DNA of 32,599 nucleotides from Candidatus Manganitrophaceae bacterium (lineage in GTDB: Bacteria; Nitrospirota; Nitrospiria; SBBL01; JAADHI01). The DNA lies in contig JAADHI010000146.1 in the NCBI GenBank assembly GCA_013151935.1, forward strand, positions 1-32,599. Reading direction: 5' to 3'. The notes under the pieces are model-generated. The model saw only the letters and a list, made by a program, of their open reading frames with translations. It was not told the DNA's origin and made no database searches. Made by a program: the position numbers and the translations under genes. Positions 8,691-29,667 of this stretch are shown here, one piece after another (positions within the stretch are counted from its first letter, which is position 1; each line of letters opens with the position of its first letter).

Positions 8691-9152
8691 TTACGCTTCT
8701 GTATTTTCCGTACTAGCAACCACTTCAACCTTAACAGAAGCCGAGACATCATGATGGATTTTAACAGGGATTTGAAAGACACCCAGAGCCTTAATGGGCT
8801 TATCTAAGAGTATTTTGCGTTTATCAATTTCCATACCCGCAGCCAGCATGGCATCCGCAATGTCTTTGGAAACAACTGAACCAAAAAGCTTCCCTTCTTC
8901 ACCCACCTGAGCTGGAATGGAAAGAGAAAGAGCCGCAACTTTTTGCGCCACATCTTCGGCGGAAAGCCGTACTTTTTTTATCTTTGCGTCAATAATGCGT
9001 TTTTCGTGGGCCAGCATTTTAACATTTTTATTTGTTGCGAGTGCGGCCAAGGACTGAGGCAGCAGGAAATTCCTTGCGTAACCCGCCTTAACCTCCACAA
9101 GATCTCCCATGCGACCCAAGCGCTCTACATCTGATTTTAAGATGACTTTCAT
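8691..9152 (-). CDS. rplI: 50S ribosomal protein L9
   Basis: The N-terminal domain begins MKVILKSDVERLGRMGDLVEVKAGYARNF, the defining L9 signature with the GYARNFLLP rRNA-binding segment. A long helix (about 40-75) leads to the C-terminal domain, which has FGSV and the IKALGVF...VKIH pattern. The length of 153 is typical. ATG at 9152 has GGGAGA upstream. The usual partners rpsF and rpsR are absent. Instead the JAMM-motif membrane protein lies 54 bases upstream on the same strand. Confidence 0.97.
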   Translation of the reverse strand: MKVILKSDVERLGRMGDLVEVKAGYARNFLLPQSLAALATNKNVKMLAHEKRIIDAKIKKVRLSAEDVAQKVAALSLSIPAQVGEEGKLFGSVVSKDIADAMLAAGMEIDKRKILLDKPIKALGVFQIPVKIHHDVSASVKVEVVASTENTEA

Positions 9153-9206: not shown

Positions 9207-10163
9207 CTATTGGAGGTGGAGTCGATTGTCAATCTTAATGTCCACCATTGCGAGGACTTCCTGGTTGACATCATATAAAGTCCAGCCAGACTCAGAAAAA
9301 GTAAAGACCAATTGTCGGTTGCGCTGGCTTTGCTGAATATCTACGGCAGAAGGAGGTTCATTCAAGCCGTTGTGAAAATGGAAAATCCCTACAAAACGCT
9401 CATCCAAAGGGATTCTGCCCAGACCTGCCTTGAATTGATAGGGAGACAGGATATAGCGTGATTCGGAAAGCGCCTCATACATCTCAAGAAAGTTTTGCAT
9501 CATGGTCCGACGTAAGGGTTCTGAAATACGATCACTTTGAATCAAGGTTCTTGTGCTTTCAATCCAGGGTTCTCTAATTCCCACACCATCCAAAATTTCA
9601 TGACTATAGTCCGCTTCGAGCAGGCCAATTAAGGATTCTGGCGTTTCGATGCTTTTACGGAGACGCGCAAGATAGATTTCATTCAGGGAAGAAATGGGGT
9701 AGATATTGAGATTAGGTTCCCCTGAGGCAGCATAGGAGATAGAAAGCAAGCCGCCAACTTCACTGTCGTGATGATCCCGTGAAGCAAGAAGACGCTGATA
9801 AAGGGCATTTTGCAACTCCGGTCGGGCCAAGGCGGTTTTAATGTCCTCATGTGGCACTTGAAAAAACCCGGATTGATAGGCCCCCCGGATACCCAATTCA
9901 TAAAAATGTCCCAACAAAGTAAAGGGAAAGTCGCGCGTCGCAATTTCATAGGCAATGGGGATCCCCTGTAAAAAAGCACGATTGCCTTTTTCGAGACGTT
10001 GCAGCGGAGAATCGGTGGGATAAATGACTTGAGTCGCCAATTGAAGGTAACAAATCATCAACGGAATGAGCCAATAATTATTTAAAAACCGACGAAAACG
10101 ATTGAAACCCGAAGCACTGCGTCGATCATCTTCTGAAAAAAAAGAGAGAACGTCCTCATTCAT
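9207..10163 (-). CDS. Membrane-anchored protein with JAMM/MPN-like metalloprotease motif, function unknown
   Basis: The protein has 318 residues and I recognise no named family. A polar, basic N-terminus (1-29) precedes one predicted membrane segment (about 30-48, WLIPLMICYLQL). A long soluble region follows. Near the C-terminus His262, His264, Ser272 and Asp275 fit the JAMM zinc signature H-x-H-x7-S-x2-D exactly (FHFHNG...PPSAVD). The strand after it (QLVFTFSESGWTLYDV) also suits that fold. The conserved upstream Glu cannot be assigned; Glu227 and Glu230 are candidates. JAMM proteins cleave isopeptide or peptide bonds. Whether this one is active is inference. ATG at 10163 has AAGGAG upstream. 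It lies directly upstream of rplI, where other lineages often have a different membrane protein (DUF2232/YybS-like). Confidence 0.7.
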   Translation of the reverse strand: MNEDVLSFFSEDDRRSASGFNRFRRFLNNYWLIPLMICYLQLATQVIYPTDSPLQRLEKGNRAFLQGIPIAYEIATRDFPFTLLGHFYELGIRGAYQSGFFQVPHEDIKTALARPELQNALYQRLLASRDHHDSEVGGLLSISYAASGEPNLNIYPISSLNEIYLARLRKSIETPESLIGLLEADYSHEILDGVGIREPWIESTRTLIQSDRISEPLRRTMMQNFLEMYEALSESRYILSPYQFKAGLGRIPLDERFVGIFHFHNGLNEPPSAVDIQQSQRNRQLVFTFSESGWTLYDVNQEVLAMVDIKIDNRLHLQ

Positions 10164-10263: not shown

Positions 10264-10327
10264 TCAAGAAATACTCCATCACTGATTTAGCTTTAAACCT
10301 TTGCTTTATATAAAGAAATTAGAGAGA

Positions 10328-10954
10328 ATGCCTAACATGACTGGAAGAAATGTGCTTACAAAATGGGCGCTTCTGGGCACATTTTTCGCCCTACTGTTGC
10401 TGTTCACAGCGGAAATATCACAGGCTTTAGCGGACGAAACCCCCTCAATCCAGATCGAAAAGTTACGGTTTTTTGACTGGAAATCCGATGCGTCCTCTCA
10501 AAAAATCGCAAAAAAAGCCTGTCATCTCCAATTGACAGGCTTCAGCCGAGACCGTGTTTTTATCTCAATGCAGCTTTCAATGCTAAAGGCCTCCGCAGCC
10601 GCAGGCGCTCGCAATGCCCTCACCATCCTAAAAATATCGGCGACCCAAGTCTTTCAAGAAGACTTTTCGGATGCCATTTCTATCAGACTGTCGGAGGCTT
10701 GGCTTGAAACCAGTACAGTCACAACCCTGGGTCTTCTAGAAAAAGTCATTGATGAAGAAATGCACTTTATCGGAGGCATACCCGGAAATGGGCTATTCAT
10801 TACGCTACTACGTGGCATGAGAAAAGATGCTCTGATCTTAGGCTATCACCCAGAAACAGAACCTTTTGCCAGAATATTTGATCTTGGAACACCGCCGCCC
10901 CACCTTATTGAAGACCTCAAAATTTGCCTGGCCAAAGGTGCCGCGTTTTTTTAA
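10328..10954 (+). CDS. Exported protein of unknown function
   Basis: The protein has 208 residues from the ATG at 10328. AGAGAG just upstream is a weak ribosome site, and ATG at 10337 would also serve. The leader has basic residues, a long hydrophobic core (WALLGTFFALLLLFTAEI) and ALA-DE, a convincing signal peptide. The mature part has no motif I recognise and no repeats. A few aromatic and charged patterns (LRFFDW, GGIPGNGLFITLL) do not point to a family. It stands alone on the plus strand between the rplI block and the bactofilin gene. An intrinsic terminator for the opposite strand is embedded in its coding region at 10510-10541. Confidence 0.65.
   Translation: MPNMTGRNVLTKWALLGTFFALLLLFTAEISQALADETPSIQIEKLRFFDWKSDASSQKIAKKACHLQLTGFSRDRVFISMQLSMLKASAAAGARNALTILKISATQVFQEDFSDAISIRLSEAWLETSTVTTLGLLEKVIDEEMHFIGGIPGNGLFITLLRGMRKDALILGYHPETEPFARIFDLGTPPPHLIEDLKICLAKGAAFF
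10510..10541 (-). terminator. Intrinsic terminator on the antisense strand, inside a coding gene
   Basis: Read on the minus strand, AGCCTGTCA (10541-10533) pairs perfectly with TGACAGGCT (10524-10516), nine base pairs with an eight-base loop, followed by seven T (10516-10510). This has all the features of a Rho-independent terminator for transcripts moving leftward. It would stop RNA antisense to the exported-protein gene before it reaches the rplI block. Confidence 0.65.
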
Positions 10955-11124: not shown

Positions 11125-11565
11125 ATGGCATTTGGACGTGAAGAAAGTCCCGCAAGGGAATCTGATGAACTGATCATTTTTATGGGAAAAAGTGTTGAGA
11201 TTAAAGGTGATATTCACTTTCAGGGCTCTGGACGACTGGACGGAAAGGTCACGGGAAAAATCAATGTGGACGGCACCCTCATTTTAGGTGAAGGGGCCAT
11301 GATTTCATCCGAGATAGAAGGGGATACCGTCATTGTTGGCGGCACGGTCAAGGGAAAAATCCTGGGACGTCAAAGTGTCCAGTTGCTGAAGACCTCCGTG
11401 GTAAATTGCGATATTACAACCCCCTCGCTGGTCATTGAGGAAGGGGCACAATTTAACGGCGGCGCAAAAATGGGCTCAAGCGCTGCTGTAGAAAAAATAC
11501 CGACCCCCTTCCCGCTCACAAATGAAGAAAATAAACGAAAATCAGTCGTGCAGGCCGTCAAATAA
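11125..11565 (+). CDS. Bactofilin (polymer-forming cytoskeletal protein)
   Basis: Bactofilins self-assemble without nucleotide into filaments and act in cell shape, stalk or pole organisation, and chromosome positioning. The 146-residue protein has the usual short charged N-terminal tail and a central beta-helix domain (about 18-115) built of repeating G-x-I/V-x-G-x-V turns, such as 'VEIKGDIHF' and 'GRLDGKVTG'. A proline- and charge-rich C-terminal tail follows. ATG at 11125 has GGAGGAG at 11113-11119. The gene has its own promoter and ends at a strong terminator shared with the tail of mnmA. A second, shorter bactofilin lies at 12792-13154. Confidence 0.93.
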   Translation: MAFGREESPARESDELIIFMGKSVEIKGDIHFQGSGRLDGKVTGKINVDGTLILGEGAMISSEIEGDTVIVGGTVKGKILGRQSVQLLKTSVVNCDITTPSLVIEEGAQFNGGAKMGSSAAVEKIPTPFPLTNEENKRKSVVQAVK

Positions 11566-11598: not shown

Positions 11599-12780
11599 TT
11601 AAACCTGATCCAGTTTCAACTGGATCAGGTTTTTTTGGTCGTCCCCTTCAATTTCCTTATGTTTTGAAATCGTTCCTCCACCGATGACCTCATCCCCCTG
11701 GTAAAAGACAACGGACTGTCCCGGTGTCACCCCCCGCTCTGGCCGATGAAAACGCACATCAACATCAGAGAGCTCAGGATCTCCAGTTTCAAGGGGAATA
11801 ATGTCAGCAGCCACAGGTTCAGCACGGTGGCGGATGCGGGCTTGCACAGCGCACGCCGTTTTTAGAGGCCCCAATGCCCCCCAGACAAGATCTTTTGTGA
11901 TAAAGCTGTCGCAGAGGAGCTCGTCTTCAGTGCCAAGCACAACCTGATTTAAAGCGGGGACAAGCTTTGTGACATAGCGACGCTCCCCCATCGCAATGCC
12001 AAGCCCACGTCGTTGTCCTACCGTATAAAAAGAAAAACCCTCATGTTGTCCAAGCACCTCCCCCGAAGGACTCACGACCTCACCTGGACGCTTGGCTTCT
12101 GGGCGATTTTCACTTAAAAAAGCACGATAATCTTTCTGTGTCACAAAACAAACTTCCTGGCTTTCCAGAATTTCCTCATAAGGTAGACCCATCTCAGCCG
12201 CTTTTTTATACACATCCTCTTTGCACATCTCACCTAAGGGAAACAGGGTTGCGGCCAACTGCGCCTGGCTTAAACGGTACAGAAAATAACTCTGATCCTT
12301 ATTCAGATCGATGCCTTTGAGCAAAGCATAGCGTTTGGACTCTACATCGTACCTGATTCGGCTGTAATGCCCCGTGGCAAGATAATCGGCACCCAATTCA
12401 CGCGCCGACAAAAGCAGCTGCGTAAACTTAACCCGCGCGTTACAACGCACACAGGGATTTGGTGTTTCACCGATCAAATAAGTATCACAAAAATCATCAA
12501 TGACTTCAGCCTGAAAGACTTTTTGAATATCGACTTTATGATGCGGAATATCGAGTTCTTTCGCCACGTGGCGCGCTAAACCCACCTTGCAGCAAGAGCG
12601 GTCTTGCCAGGCTTTTTCGTCTTCATTTTCATCCTGCCAAAGCGTCAAAGTCACACCGATGACGTCATAACCCGCTTCTTTCAGTAAAGCCGCCGTCACT
12701 GCCGAATCAACACCGCCACTCATGCCAACAACCACCCGCTGGCCTGAGCCCGAACGGATTCTTTTTATGCCATCCAACAT
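11599..12780 (-). CDS. mnmA: tRNA-specific 2-thiouridylase
   Basis: MnmA uses ATP and relayed persulfide sulfur to make 2-thiouridine at tRNA position 34. The PP-loop SGGVDS is at residues 21-26. The nucleophilic Cys110 is in NPCVRCN and the persulfide-relay Cys210 is in EVCFV. TGHY and the C-terminal beta-barrel region (GQRRGLGI onward) are intact. At 393 residues it is slightly longer than the 360-370 typical of many homologues, from an extended tail. The last ten codons form one half of a 15-base-pair inverted repeat that doubles as a terminator. ATG at 12780 has AAGGG nine bases upstream. It follows the second bactofilin by 11 bases. Confidence 0.97.
   Translation of the reverse strand: MLDGIKRIRSGSGQRVVVGMSGGVDSAVTAALLKEAGYDVIGVTLTLWQDENEDEKAWQDRSCCKVGLARHVAKELDIPHHKVDIQKVFQAEVIDDFCDTYLIGETPNPCVRCNARVKFTQLLLSARELGADYLATGHYSRIRYDVESKRYALLKGIDLNKDQSYFLYRLSQAQLAATLFPLGEMCKEDVYKKAAEMGLPYEEILESQEVCFVTQKDYRAFLSENRPEAKRPGEVVSPSGEVLGQHEGFSFYTVGQRRGLGIAMGERRYVTKLVPALNQVVLGTEDELLCDSFITKDLVWGALGPLKTACAVQARIRHRAEPVAADIIPLETGDPELSDVDVRFHRPERGVTPGQSVVFYQGDEVIGGGTISKHKEIEGDDQKNLIQLKLDQV
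11601..11636 (+). terminator. Intrinsic terminator of the first bactofilin gene, overlapping the mnmA 3' end
   Basis: AAACCTGATCCAGTT (11601-11615) and AACTGGATCAGGTTT (11618-11632) are perfect inverted repeats, followed by T to 11636. On the plus strand this is a strong Rho-independent terminator. The same DNA encodes the last residues of MnmA plus part of its stop. On the minus strand the hairpin also forms, but its downstream T-run is weak (TTTAAAG). Confidence 0.85.
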
Positions 12781-12791
12781 ATCAGAGACCC

Positions 12792-13154
12792 TTAACTTGG
12801 ATCCGCTATATTTGGAGACGGGGTCTTCATTTCACAGTGCCCGTTGAAACTCACACCCTCGTCGATAATTAAACGCGGCGTATTGAGCGAACCACTGATT
12901 GTCGATTTTGAAAGGAGGTGTATTTTCTTTGAGGCCTGAAGGTCCCCGTTGATTTTGCCACCACAGATAATACTACCCACTGAAATCTTTGCATCGATAC
13001 TCGCTGACTCTCCGATCACCAAGTCACCCAGAGAAATAATCTCCCCCTCCATCTTGCCATCAATGCGAATTGCACCTTCATAAGTAATAACGCCTTTAAA
13101 AGTTGTTCCCTTACCTAAAAAAGCCACCATATCATCACTACTGTTACGCGCCAT
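12792..13154 (-). CDS. Bactofilin, second and shorter paralogue
   Basis: The 120-residue protein has the bactofilin beta-helix (about 10-105) with repeated glycine turns such as GVITYEGAIRIDG and GEIISLGDLVIGE. Its N- and C-terminal tails are short. Similarity to the bactofilin at 11125 is clear in pattern (LGKGTTFKGVI against MGKSVEIKGDI; SLNTPRLIIDEGVSFNG against DITTPSLVIEEGAQFNG). They are paralogues and not a recent duplication. ATG at 13154 has AGGAGG upstream. It follows parB on the same strand. Bactofilin-ParB links are known from Myxococcus, where bactofilin filaments position ParABS components, so a role in origin placement is plausible. Confidence 0.93.
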   Translation of the reverse strand: MARNSSDDMVAFLGKGTTFKGVITYEGAIRIDGKMEGEIISLGDLVIGESASIDAKISVGSIICGGKINGDLQASKKIHLLSKSTISGSLNTPRLIIDEGVSFNGHCEMKTPSPNIADPS

Positions 13155-13267: not shown

Positions 13268-14131
13268 CTACGTCAATTTTTCCAAAATACGATCCAAGTC
13301 GCTCAGGGAATAATAAGTGATCCGAATCTCACCTGTATTTCCCTGCTGAGATAATTTCACTTTCGTGCCTAAACTGCGTCGCAGGCGATCTTCTAAGGCA
13401 CTTAAATCGGCACGCTCGCCCTGGCTTAAAGGTTTCACCACTCTTTTAAGCACGGGTTGTTTTTTGATTTGATGCACCGCAGCTTCTGCCTGACGCACCG
13501 AAAGACCGCGTGCTTCGATTTCCTCTGCAAGCTTCAATTGTTCAGACTTAGATTCAAGCGACAAGAGCGCCTTCGCATGCCCCATTGAAAGACGGCCCTC
13601 AGAAATTTCTTCCCAAAGTTCCTTTGGAAGATGAAGAAGACGCAGAAAGTTTGAAACAGAAGAACGATTGATTCCCATACGACTGGCGATGGCCTCTTGT
13701 GTCAGCGAAAACTCAGAAATGAGGTTTTCATAGGCCTTTGCCTTTTCAATCGGGTTAAGATCTTCACGCTGCAAATTTTCAAGCAGCGCCCATTCCATGA
13801 GCTCCTGATCCGCAACCTCTTTTAGGATCGCAGGAATTTTTGAGAGTCCAGCCCGTCTCGCGGCACGCCAACGCCGCTCTCCCGAAATGAGCTCATATCC
13901 ACCTGCTTCATCTTTACGAACCGTAATAGGTTGAATGAGGCCATGCTGTTTTAAAGACGCCGCTAAAGATTCGAGTGCCGCTTCATCAAAGATCTGCCTT
14001 GGCTGATAACGGTTTGCCTTGACCCGATCGACATCAAGATTCAAGAGACCGGGCAAATCTGCCTCCATCGTCGGAACCAAGGCCCCTAAGCCTTTCCCCT
14101 CAAACCCTTTCCCCAATGCCTTACGTGCCAT
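13268..14131 (-). CDS. parB: Chromosome-partitioning protein ParB (Spo0J/Noc family)
   Basis: ParB binds parS, loads as a CTP-dependent clamp and spreads along DNA to guide origin segregation. The 287-residue protein has an N-terminal KGLGALVP segment and the CTPase region with GLIQPI (64-69) and GERRWRAARR (84-93). It also has LLENLQREDLNPIEKAKAY and a helix-turn-helix near 142-163 (SLTQEAIASRMGINRSSVSNF). A C-terminal dimerisation region follows. ATG at 14131 has GAGGGG upstream. Its usual partner parA is not upstream; the next gene on that strand is a small lipoprotein. It appears to head an operon with a bactofilin and mnmA. Confidence 0.95.
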   Translation of the reverse strand: MARKALGKGFEGKGLGALVPTMEADLPGLLNLDVDRVKANRYQPRQIFDEAALESLAASLKQHGLIQPITVRKDEAGGYELISGERRWRAARRAGLSKIPAILKEVADQELMEWALLENLQREDLNPIEKAKAYENLISEFSLTQEAIASRMGINRSSVSNFLRLLHLPKELWEEISEGRLSMGHAKALLSLESKSEQLKLAEEIEARGLSVRQAEAAVHQIKKQPVLKRVVKPLSQGERADLSALEDRLRRSLGTKVKLSQQGNTGEIRITYYSLSDLDRILEKLT

Positions 14132-28935: not shown

Positions 28936-29667
28936 ATGCTAAAAATCAAGGACTGGCCCAAAGCAGAACGTCCACGAGAACGCTTATTAAAAAATGGTGC
29001 GGAGTCTCTTTCCGATGCCCAGCTTTTGGCCATCCTTCTGAGGACAGGTTCGGACAAGGGCGATGCCCTGCAACTTGCCATTTATCTGCTCAAAAAATTT
29101 TCCCCTTTGCCGCAATTTTTCCAGGCGACGGTTTCCGAACTTTGCGCCGTAAAAGGGGTAGGGCCTGCAAAAGCCGCCCAACTGAAGGCTGCATTGGAAT
29201 TAGGGCGACGGTCACTCAGCATTCCCTTATTTGAAGGTGCCATTTTTTCAAAAAGCCGTGATGTCTTTCAGTATTTTGCTCCCTTGTTTAGAAACGCAAA
29301 AAAAGAGTACTTCAAGATTCTTCTATTGGACCAAAAGAACAAACTCATACGAGATGTCACTATTTCTGAGGGGAGCCTGACCGCCACCGTCGTTCATCCG
29401 CGAGAAGTTTTTCGACCTGCGATTCGGGATTCGGCAGCCGCTGTCATTTTTATTCACAATCATCCCAGCGGAAACCCGAGTCCGAGCACTGAAGATAAAA
29501 ATATCACCACACGTTTGAGCAAAGTGGGCGAAGTGATGGGAATTCCCGTCTTAGATCATCTTATTATTGGTGATCGGGACTATTTTAGCTTTGCTGATGC
29601 CGGATATATTCAGCATCAGCAACAAGGAATCTCAGTCGCAGGTCAAAACGAAGTGGTTTACAGATGA
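28936..29667 (+). CDS. radC: RadC family JAB/JAMM-domain protein
   Basis: The 243-residue protein has an N-terminal helix-hairpin-helix region (VKGVGPAKAAQLKAALELG, about 72-90) and a C-terminal RadC JAMM domain. The metal signature His174, His176, Ser184 and Asp187 (HNHPSGNPSPSTED) is intact and fits H-x-H-x7-S-x2-D. The original link to DNA repair is now doubted, so its biochemical role is not settled. No strong ribosome site precedes ATG 28936. It provides an in-window reference for the same motif in the membrane protein at 9207-10163. Confidence 0.95.
   Translation: MLKIKDWPKAERPRERLLKNGAESLSDAQLLAILLRTGSDKGDALQLAIYLLKKFSPLPQFFQATVSELCAVKGVGPAKAAQLKAALELGRRSLSIPLFEGAIFSKSRDVFQYFAPLFRNAKKEYFKILLLDQKNKLIRDVTISEGSLTATVVHPREVFRPAIRDSAAAVIFIHNHPSGNPSPSTEDKNITTRLSKVGEVMGIPVLDHLIIGDRDYFSFADAGYIQHQQQGISVAGQNEVVYR

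Follow-up and report, generated by a model that had tools for sequence, protein, structure and literature searches.

A gene of a Candidatus Manganitrophaceae bacterium encodes a 318-residue product that is, judged by its sequence and predicted structure, an MPN+ (JAMM) protein of the superfamily that MEROPS lists as M67, with a complete set of active-site residues. The product is probably a zinc metallopeptidase that a single N-terminal signal anchor fixes in the inner membrane, and whose catalytic domain lies in the periplasm. The gene occupies positions 9207–10163 of the reverse strand in a 32,599-nucleotide stretch of contig JAADHI010000146.1 (assembly GCA_013151935.1), and this whole stretch is referred to here as the window. 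Homology, fold, full conservation of the active site and the presence of one membrane helix were all computed. The open reading frame has an ATG start with an AAGGAG ribosome binding site 5' of it, and its stop codon is at 9207–9209. It is present in one copy in its own genome, and comparison with its nearest relative gives nonsynonymous and synonymous divergences (dN and dS) of 0.12 and 1.8, a ratio far below 1. Neither Pfam nor NCBIfam yet has a model for this JAMM family, which was found in a few Nitrospirota lineages and, apparently, in a location that is unusual for JAMM enzymes.

The initial annotation of this gene noted that His262, His264, Ser272 and Asp275 match H-x-H-x7-S-x2-D with the same spacing as in RadC, which is encoded in the same window, and this spacing proved exact in both. 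The pattern (9339–9380, reverse strand) occurs exactly twice among the window proteins, the other instance being at residue 174 of RadC (gene 28936–29667; motif 29455–29496, forward strand), whereas shuffled proteins give 0.0175 expected instances per window. The motif by itself would be weak evidence. However, an alignment of 25 family members, in which the other 24 share 29–80% identity with the window protein, has E135, H262, H264, S272 and D275 invariant in all 25, with just 34 invariant columns overall (G137, G138, S159, N161, the H264-adjacent N265, and P271 among them); judged by this constancy, the motif is not a chance match. E135 (9759–9761, reverse strand), which had not been located before, is the predicted catalytic Glu of the JAMM site; it lies within S/T-E-x-G-G, where the first MPN strand begins in the structural model, and was matched by eye to the E of the ECCGLL motif in Prok-JAB proteins. 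The aligned members come from groups f1 and f2 of the window's order, and from two families outside its class, f22 and f15.

The best Pfam match of the window protein was Prok-JAB (PF14464) over residues 249–283, at 16.4 bits against a cut-off of 25 bits (E = 0.0087), and this model matched 15 of the 25 members at E ≤ 1. Comparison with an alignment of Prok-JAB proteins from the same order using hhalign gave P = 1.3e-6 (probability 90.7), and paired RYILSPYQFKAGLG...FVGIFHFHNGLNEPPSAVDIQQS with RYVMDPKEQ...IYHSHx...YPSATDVRLAF of Prok-JAB across the stretch that holds the motif. Ten of the 25 members were matched by the NCBIfam desampylase model (best E 0.0067), ten by JAB models of PADLOC (best E 3e-5, for one member), and ten, weakly, by the PHROG tail-protein family phrog_5556 (best E 9e-4). 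The window protein itself matched no NCBIfam or PADLOC model, and the family is without a curated model in either Pfam or NCBIfam.

Structure prediction with AlphaFold2, using five sequences out of the 25 known members, yielded one model of the whole protein and one of residues 97–318, with predicted local distance difference test scores (pLDDT) of 59.5 and 67.3, respectively. The elements (strands 136–144 and 150–158, helices, a strand at 256–262 that holds the first His, a helix near D275, and further strands) follow the order of the MPN domain. Foldseek searches of the PDB returned JAMM proteins as all 18 best matches of the soluble domain (best E 8.8e-4) and all 28 best matches of the whole chain (best E 0.02), including bacterial DSY2949, PfJAMM1, Cap3, Rpn11, Csn5 and BRCC36. 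The model departs from Prok-JAB relatives in a mainly helical segment between the Glu and the His pair (residues 162–235; 9459–9680, reverse strand), which is about 60 residues longer and is modelled as helices with pLDDT up to ∼90. The distance from the Glu to the RY pair is 101 residues in the window protein and 40 in L053, and the insertion of about 60 residues lies between E135 and R236. Homologues conserve the motif residues, and the predicted fold is MPN; the opposite outcome in either respect would have spoken against the initial annotation.

All family members have a hydrophobic segment at residues ∼30–48, in agreement with the single N-terminal helix recognized earlier. In the window protein this helix (residues 30–48; 10020–10076, reverse strand) is probably an uncleaved signal anchor in N-in/C-out orientation, and AlphaFold2 places a low-confidence helix at 19–47. 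The segment is the hydropathy maximum in nearly every member (∼1.3–1.6 in the window's order and 1.7–2.2 in the other lineages), and no signal-peptidase site is evidently conserved among the family members. It is preceded by an Arg-rich tail (residues 1–29; 10077–10163, reverse strand), predicted to be cytoplasmic, with the pattern RR..(5)..N-R-x-R-R-x-x-N-x-Y-W-L, in which R14, R15, R24, R25 and N28 are invariant in the 25 members, as are W31 and P34. Lysine and arginine number 5–11 ahead of the helix and 2–4 (6 in one member) in the 25 residues past it, and Cys makes up 0.07% of positions past residue 60 in the family compared with 0.5–1.2% in flanking open reading frames. A periplasmic catalytic domain is suggested by the charges that flank the helix and by the near absence of Cys from the C-terminal part; the orientation is assigned because positive charges are dense before the helix and few after it. 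Low Cys fits export but is no proof of it, because rplI and parB also encode products without Cys. By eye, RR-F-L-N-N differs from the S-R-R-x-F-L-K of twin-arginine export signals, and Tat export was rejected. The initial annotation had missed that, with such a helix, the enzyme is most likely periplasmic, at a distance from ribosomes.

By analogy with AfJAMM and Csn5, H262, H264 and D275 would hold the zinc, E135 would activate the zinc-bound water, and S272 would stabilise the tetrahedral intermediate; we infer zinc binding, peptidase activity and the periplasmic side. Held in the inner membrane by its one signal-anchor helix, the enzyme would act on substrates at that membrane's outer face, cutting their amide bonds, whether peptide or isopeptide. 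Envelope proteins or peptides are our guess for the substrates, and it is also a guess that the extra helical segment determines specificity as a lid or a docking surface. That the bonds cut are of isopeptide type in the envelope (peptidoglycan cross-links or protein–peptidoglycan links), or that an exported modifier is removed, seems rather improbable. If the periplasmic assignment is right, a resident membrane-tethered JAMM enzyme would represent a new class of envelope protease, with a compact catalytic domain, in mostly uncultivated Nitrospirota, and it would raise the question of which amide bond is cut where no ubiquitin-like pathway is known.

Several points weigh against a periplasmic peptidase. 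The helix is weakly hydrophobic (∼1.3–1.6) in the window's order, and the predicted topology rests on simple rules (hydropathy, positive-inside charges and Cys content), of which low Cys is only suggestive of export, as the cytoplasmic products of rplI and parB in the window have zero Cys as well. Confidence in the structural model is modest (pLDDT 60–67), because just five sequences were usable, and the best Foldseek E-value is 8.8e-4. A real departure from known JAMM proteins is found between the two His residues, where the family has Phe (23 of 25) or Val (2 of 25), whereas AfJAMM-type enzymes have a Ser, Thr or Asn that braces the Glu (PMC300881). We treat this bracing position, which is no zinc ligand, as variable rather than defining.

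JAMM proteins are related to the enzymes that remove ubiquitin. By profile, the closest to the window protein are the stand-alone Prok-JAB proteins such as DSY2949 (2kks) and SRU_2040 (2kcq), which are also among the closest by structure and share the E...RYxxxP...HxHx7SxxD layout and the predicted MPN fold; unlike them, the window protein scores below the Pfam cut-off, has ∼60 extra residues between the Glu and the His pair, carries a membrane anchor, and has H-F-H in place of H-S/T-H. AfJAMM, Pyrococcus furiosus JAMM1 and haloarchaeal desampylase share the full JAMM active site and are among the structure and profile matches, but the substrates of PfJAMM1 and desampylase are ubiquitin-like proteins. 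Genes for a ubiquitin-like protein, E1 or E2, the neighbours sought as a mark of deconjugating JAMM enzymes (desampylase, BilA, Cap3), are absent from the annotated neighbours of the JAMM gene. Cap3 of CBASS (cyclic-oligonucleotide-based anti-phage signalling systems) has the MPN+ fold in common with it (9ild, the third structure match), although the nearest flanking genes examined here are housekeeping or envelope genes and not of defence type. A defence system was rejected, as PADLOC gives generic JAB models only and none for the window protein. The phage tail-tip JAB proteins of the lambda gpK type are reached through the weak phrog_5556 match; unlike these, the gene is chromosomal, its product lacks an NlpC/P60 domain, and searches of viral contigs and plasmids gave no relative, which leaves an origin from a phage or plasmid without support. 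RadC (UPF0758) has identical motif spacing but has an N-terminal helix-hairpin-helix region and no such membrane anchor; the RadC model (PF04002) did not match the 9207–10163 product, and RadC was rejected as a close relative since hhalign gave a probability of 0.2 and the two profiles share nothing meaningful outside the motif.

The domain might instead be nuclease-like or non-catalytic, with no peptidase activity, a nuclease role having been proposed for RadC and for the JAB domains of toxins (PMC3482391). The Phe or Val between the His pair would fit such a reading, but the distance from RadC, the peptidase-type JAB proteins that make up the nearest profiles and structures, and the five strictly conserved catalytic residues, which argue against a dead domain, lead us to regard it as quite doubtful. 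We give a little more credit, although it too seems unlikely, to an N-out arrangement with the JAMM domain facing the cytoplasm and acting on cytoplasmic substrates, for instance a sulfur carrier, a ubiquitin-like protein, or membrane proteins still emerging from the ribosome. PP-loop enzymes are encoded nearby (a QueC-family gene overlaps the JAMM gene in f2, larE is present in f22, and mnmA is 1.4 kb away in the window), and rplI is next downstream in one order; however, the Arg-rich segment precedes the helix in all members with few positive charges after it, Cys is nearly absent past the helix, and the neighbouring genes are not conserved, with M16 peptidases and a cell-wall transglycosylase among their products.

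The initial annotation had placed the gene upstream of rplI and proposed a protease of translation or membrane insertion, which would make it a housekeeping enzyme tied to ribosomal protein L9. The position is correct for the window, where rplI (8691–9152, reverse strand; Pfam Ribosomal_L9_N/C) begins 54 bp downstream and is probably co-transcribed with the JAMM gene, and it holds in 12 of the 13 members from the window's order (f1 and f2). It does not hold in the other two lineages, in which rplI was downstream in none of 11 testable members (one more f22 copy lies too close to a contig edge), nor in genome G007 of the window's own family. Another genome of that family, G001, lacks the JAMM gene altogether, other genes flank it elsewhere, and the predicted location is periplasmic. 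With adjacency confined to one order, the functional link to rplI was rejected and the translation-linked protease lacks support, so that we consider it very improbable; rplI looks like a neighbour and not a conserved partner.

Gene order around the JAMM gene differs among lineages. In the window it is JAMM–rplI–prs–rplY–pth–ychF, divergent from a secreted-looking open reading frame and a bactofilin gene (pth and ychF were named in the window by gene order and size), whereas f2 has QueC-like–JAMM–rplI–NfeD–SPFH. In f22, the JAMM gene heads a JAMM–M16–M16–LarE run with a LysM-SLT lytic transglycosylase gene divergent from it (for example L043:6858–13038; also L037–L039, L041 and L044), an order kept in six genomes, and in f15 the neighbours are different again. 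Where a recurring theme is present, it is one of proteases and envelope genes. The M16 pair and LysM transglycosylase adjoining the gene in one lineage, and NfeD/SPFH near it in another, are likewise suggestive only of a periplasmic peptidase. Promoter and terminator scans of the intergenic regions between 8500 and 10400 did no better than shuffles.

The secreted-looking open reading frame (10301–10954, forward strand; 217 residues) has no Pfam or NCBIfam match and keeps its position in four related genomes at 27–60% identity; its product is a possible partner of the JAMM protein. Two bactofilin genes (11125–11565, forward strand, and 12792–13154, reverse strand) flank mnmA (11599–12780, reverse strand), and parB is at 13268–14131 (reverse strand). 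In G007 the JAMM gene, without a downstream rplI, stands beside an IS21 transposase gene (L048:2425–4868), and the congener G006 has rplI.

Of 18 genomes of the window's order, 13 carry the gene. In a sample of 396 genomes of the phylum it also occurred in f22 and f15, but the genomes listed for f6, a family of the same class, all lacked it. GTDB contigs, scanned by pattern with a single sequence, gave relatives solely in Nitrospirota, and named records agree. Since G001 (95% complete) has no copy, the gene is probably dispensable. Each of the four groups is separated from the rest by a single branch of the family tree, albeit with weak support for f1; this is in keeping with mostly vertical inheritance and either losses or rare gains. 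Outside the subscription literature, full-text searches for a JAMM protein of the periplasm or membrane returned nothing directly relevant, and no periplasmic JAMM enzyme was found described. Several genomes of the order also encode a second JAB group of ∼210–310 residues (E-T-A-A-W..., HSHG; L064, L069–L071 and L073–L075), which is far from canonical Prok-JAB.
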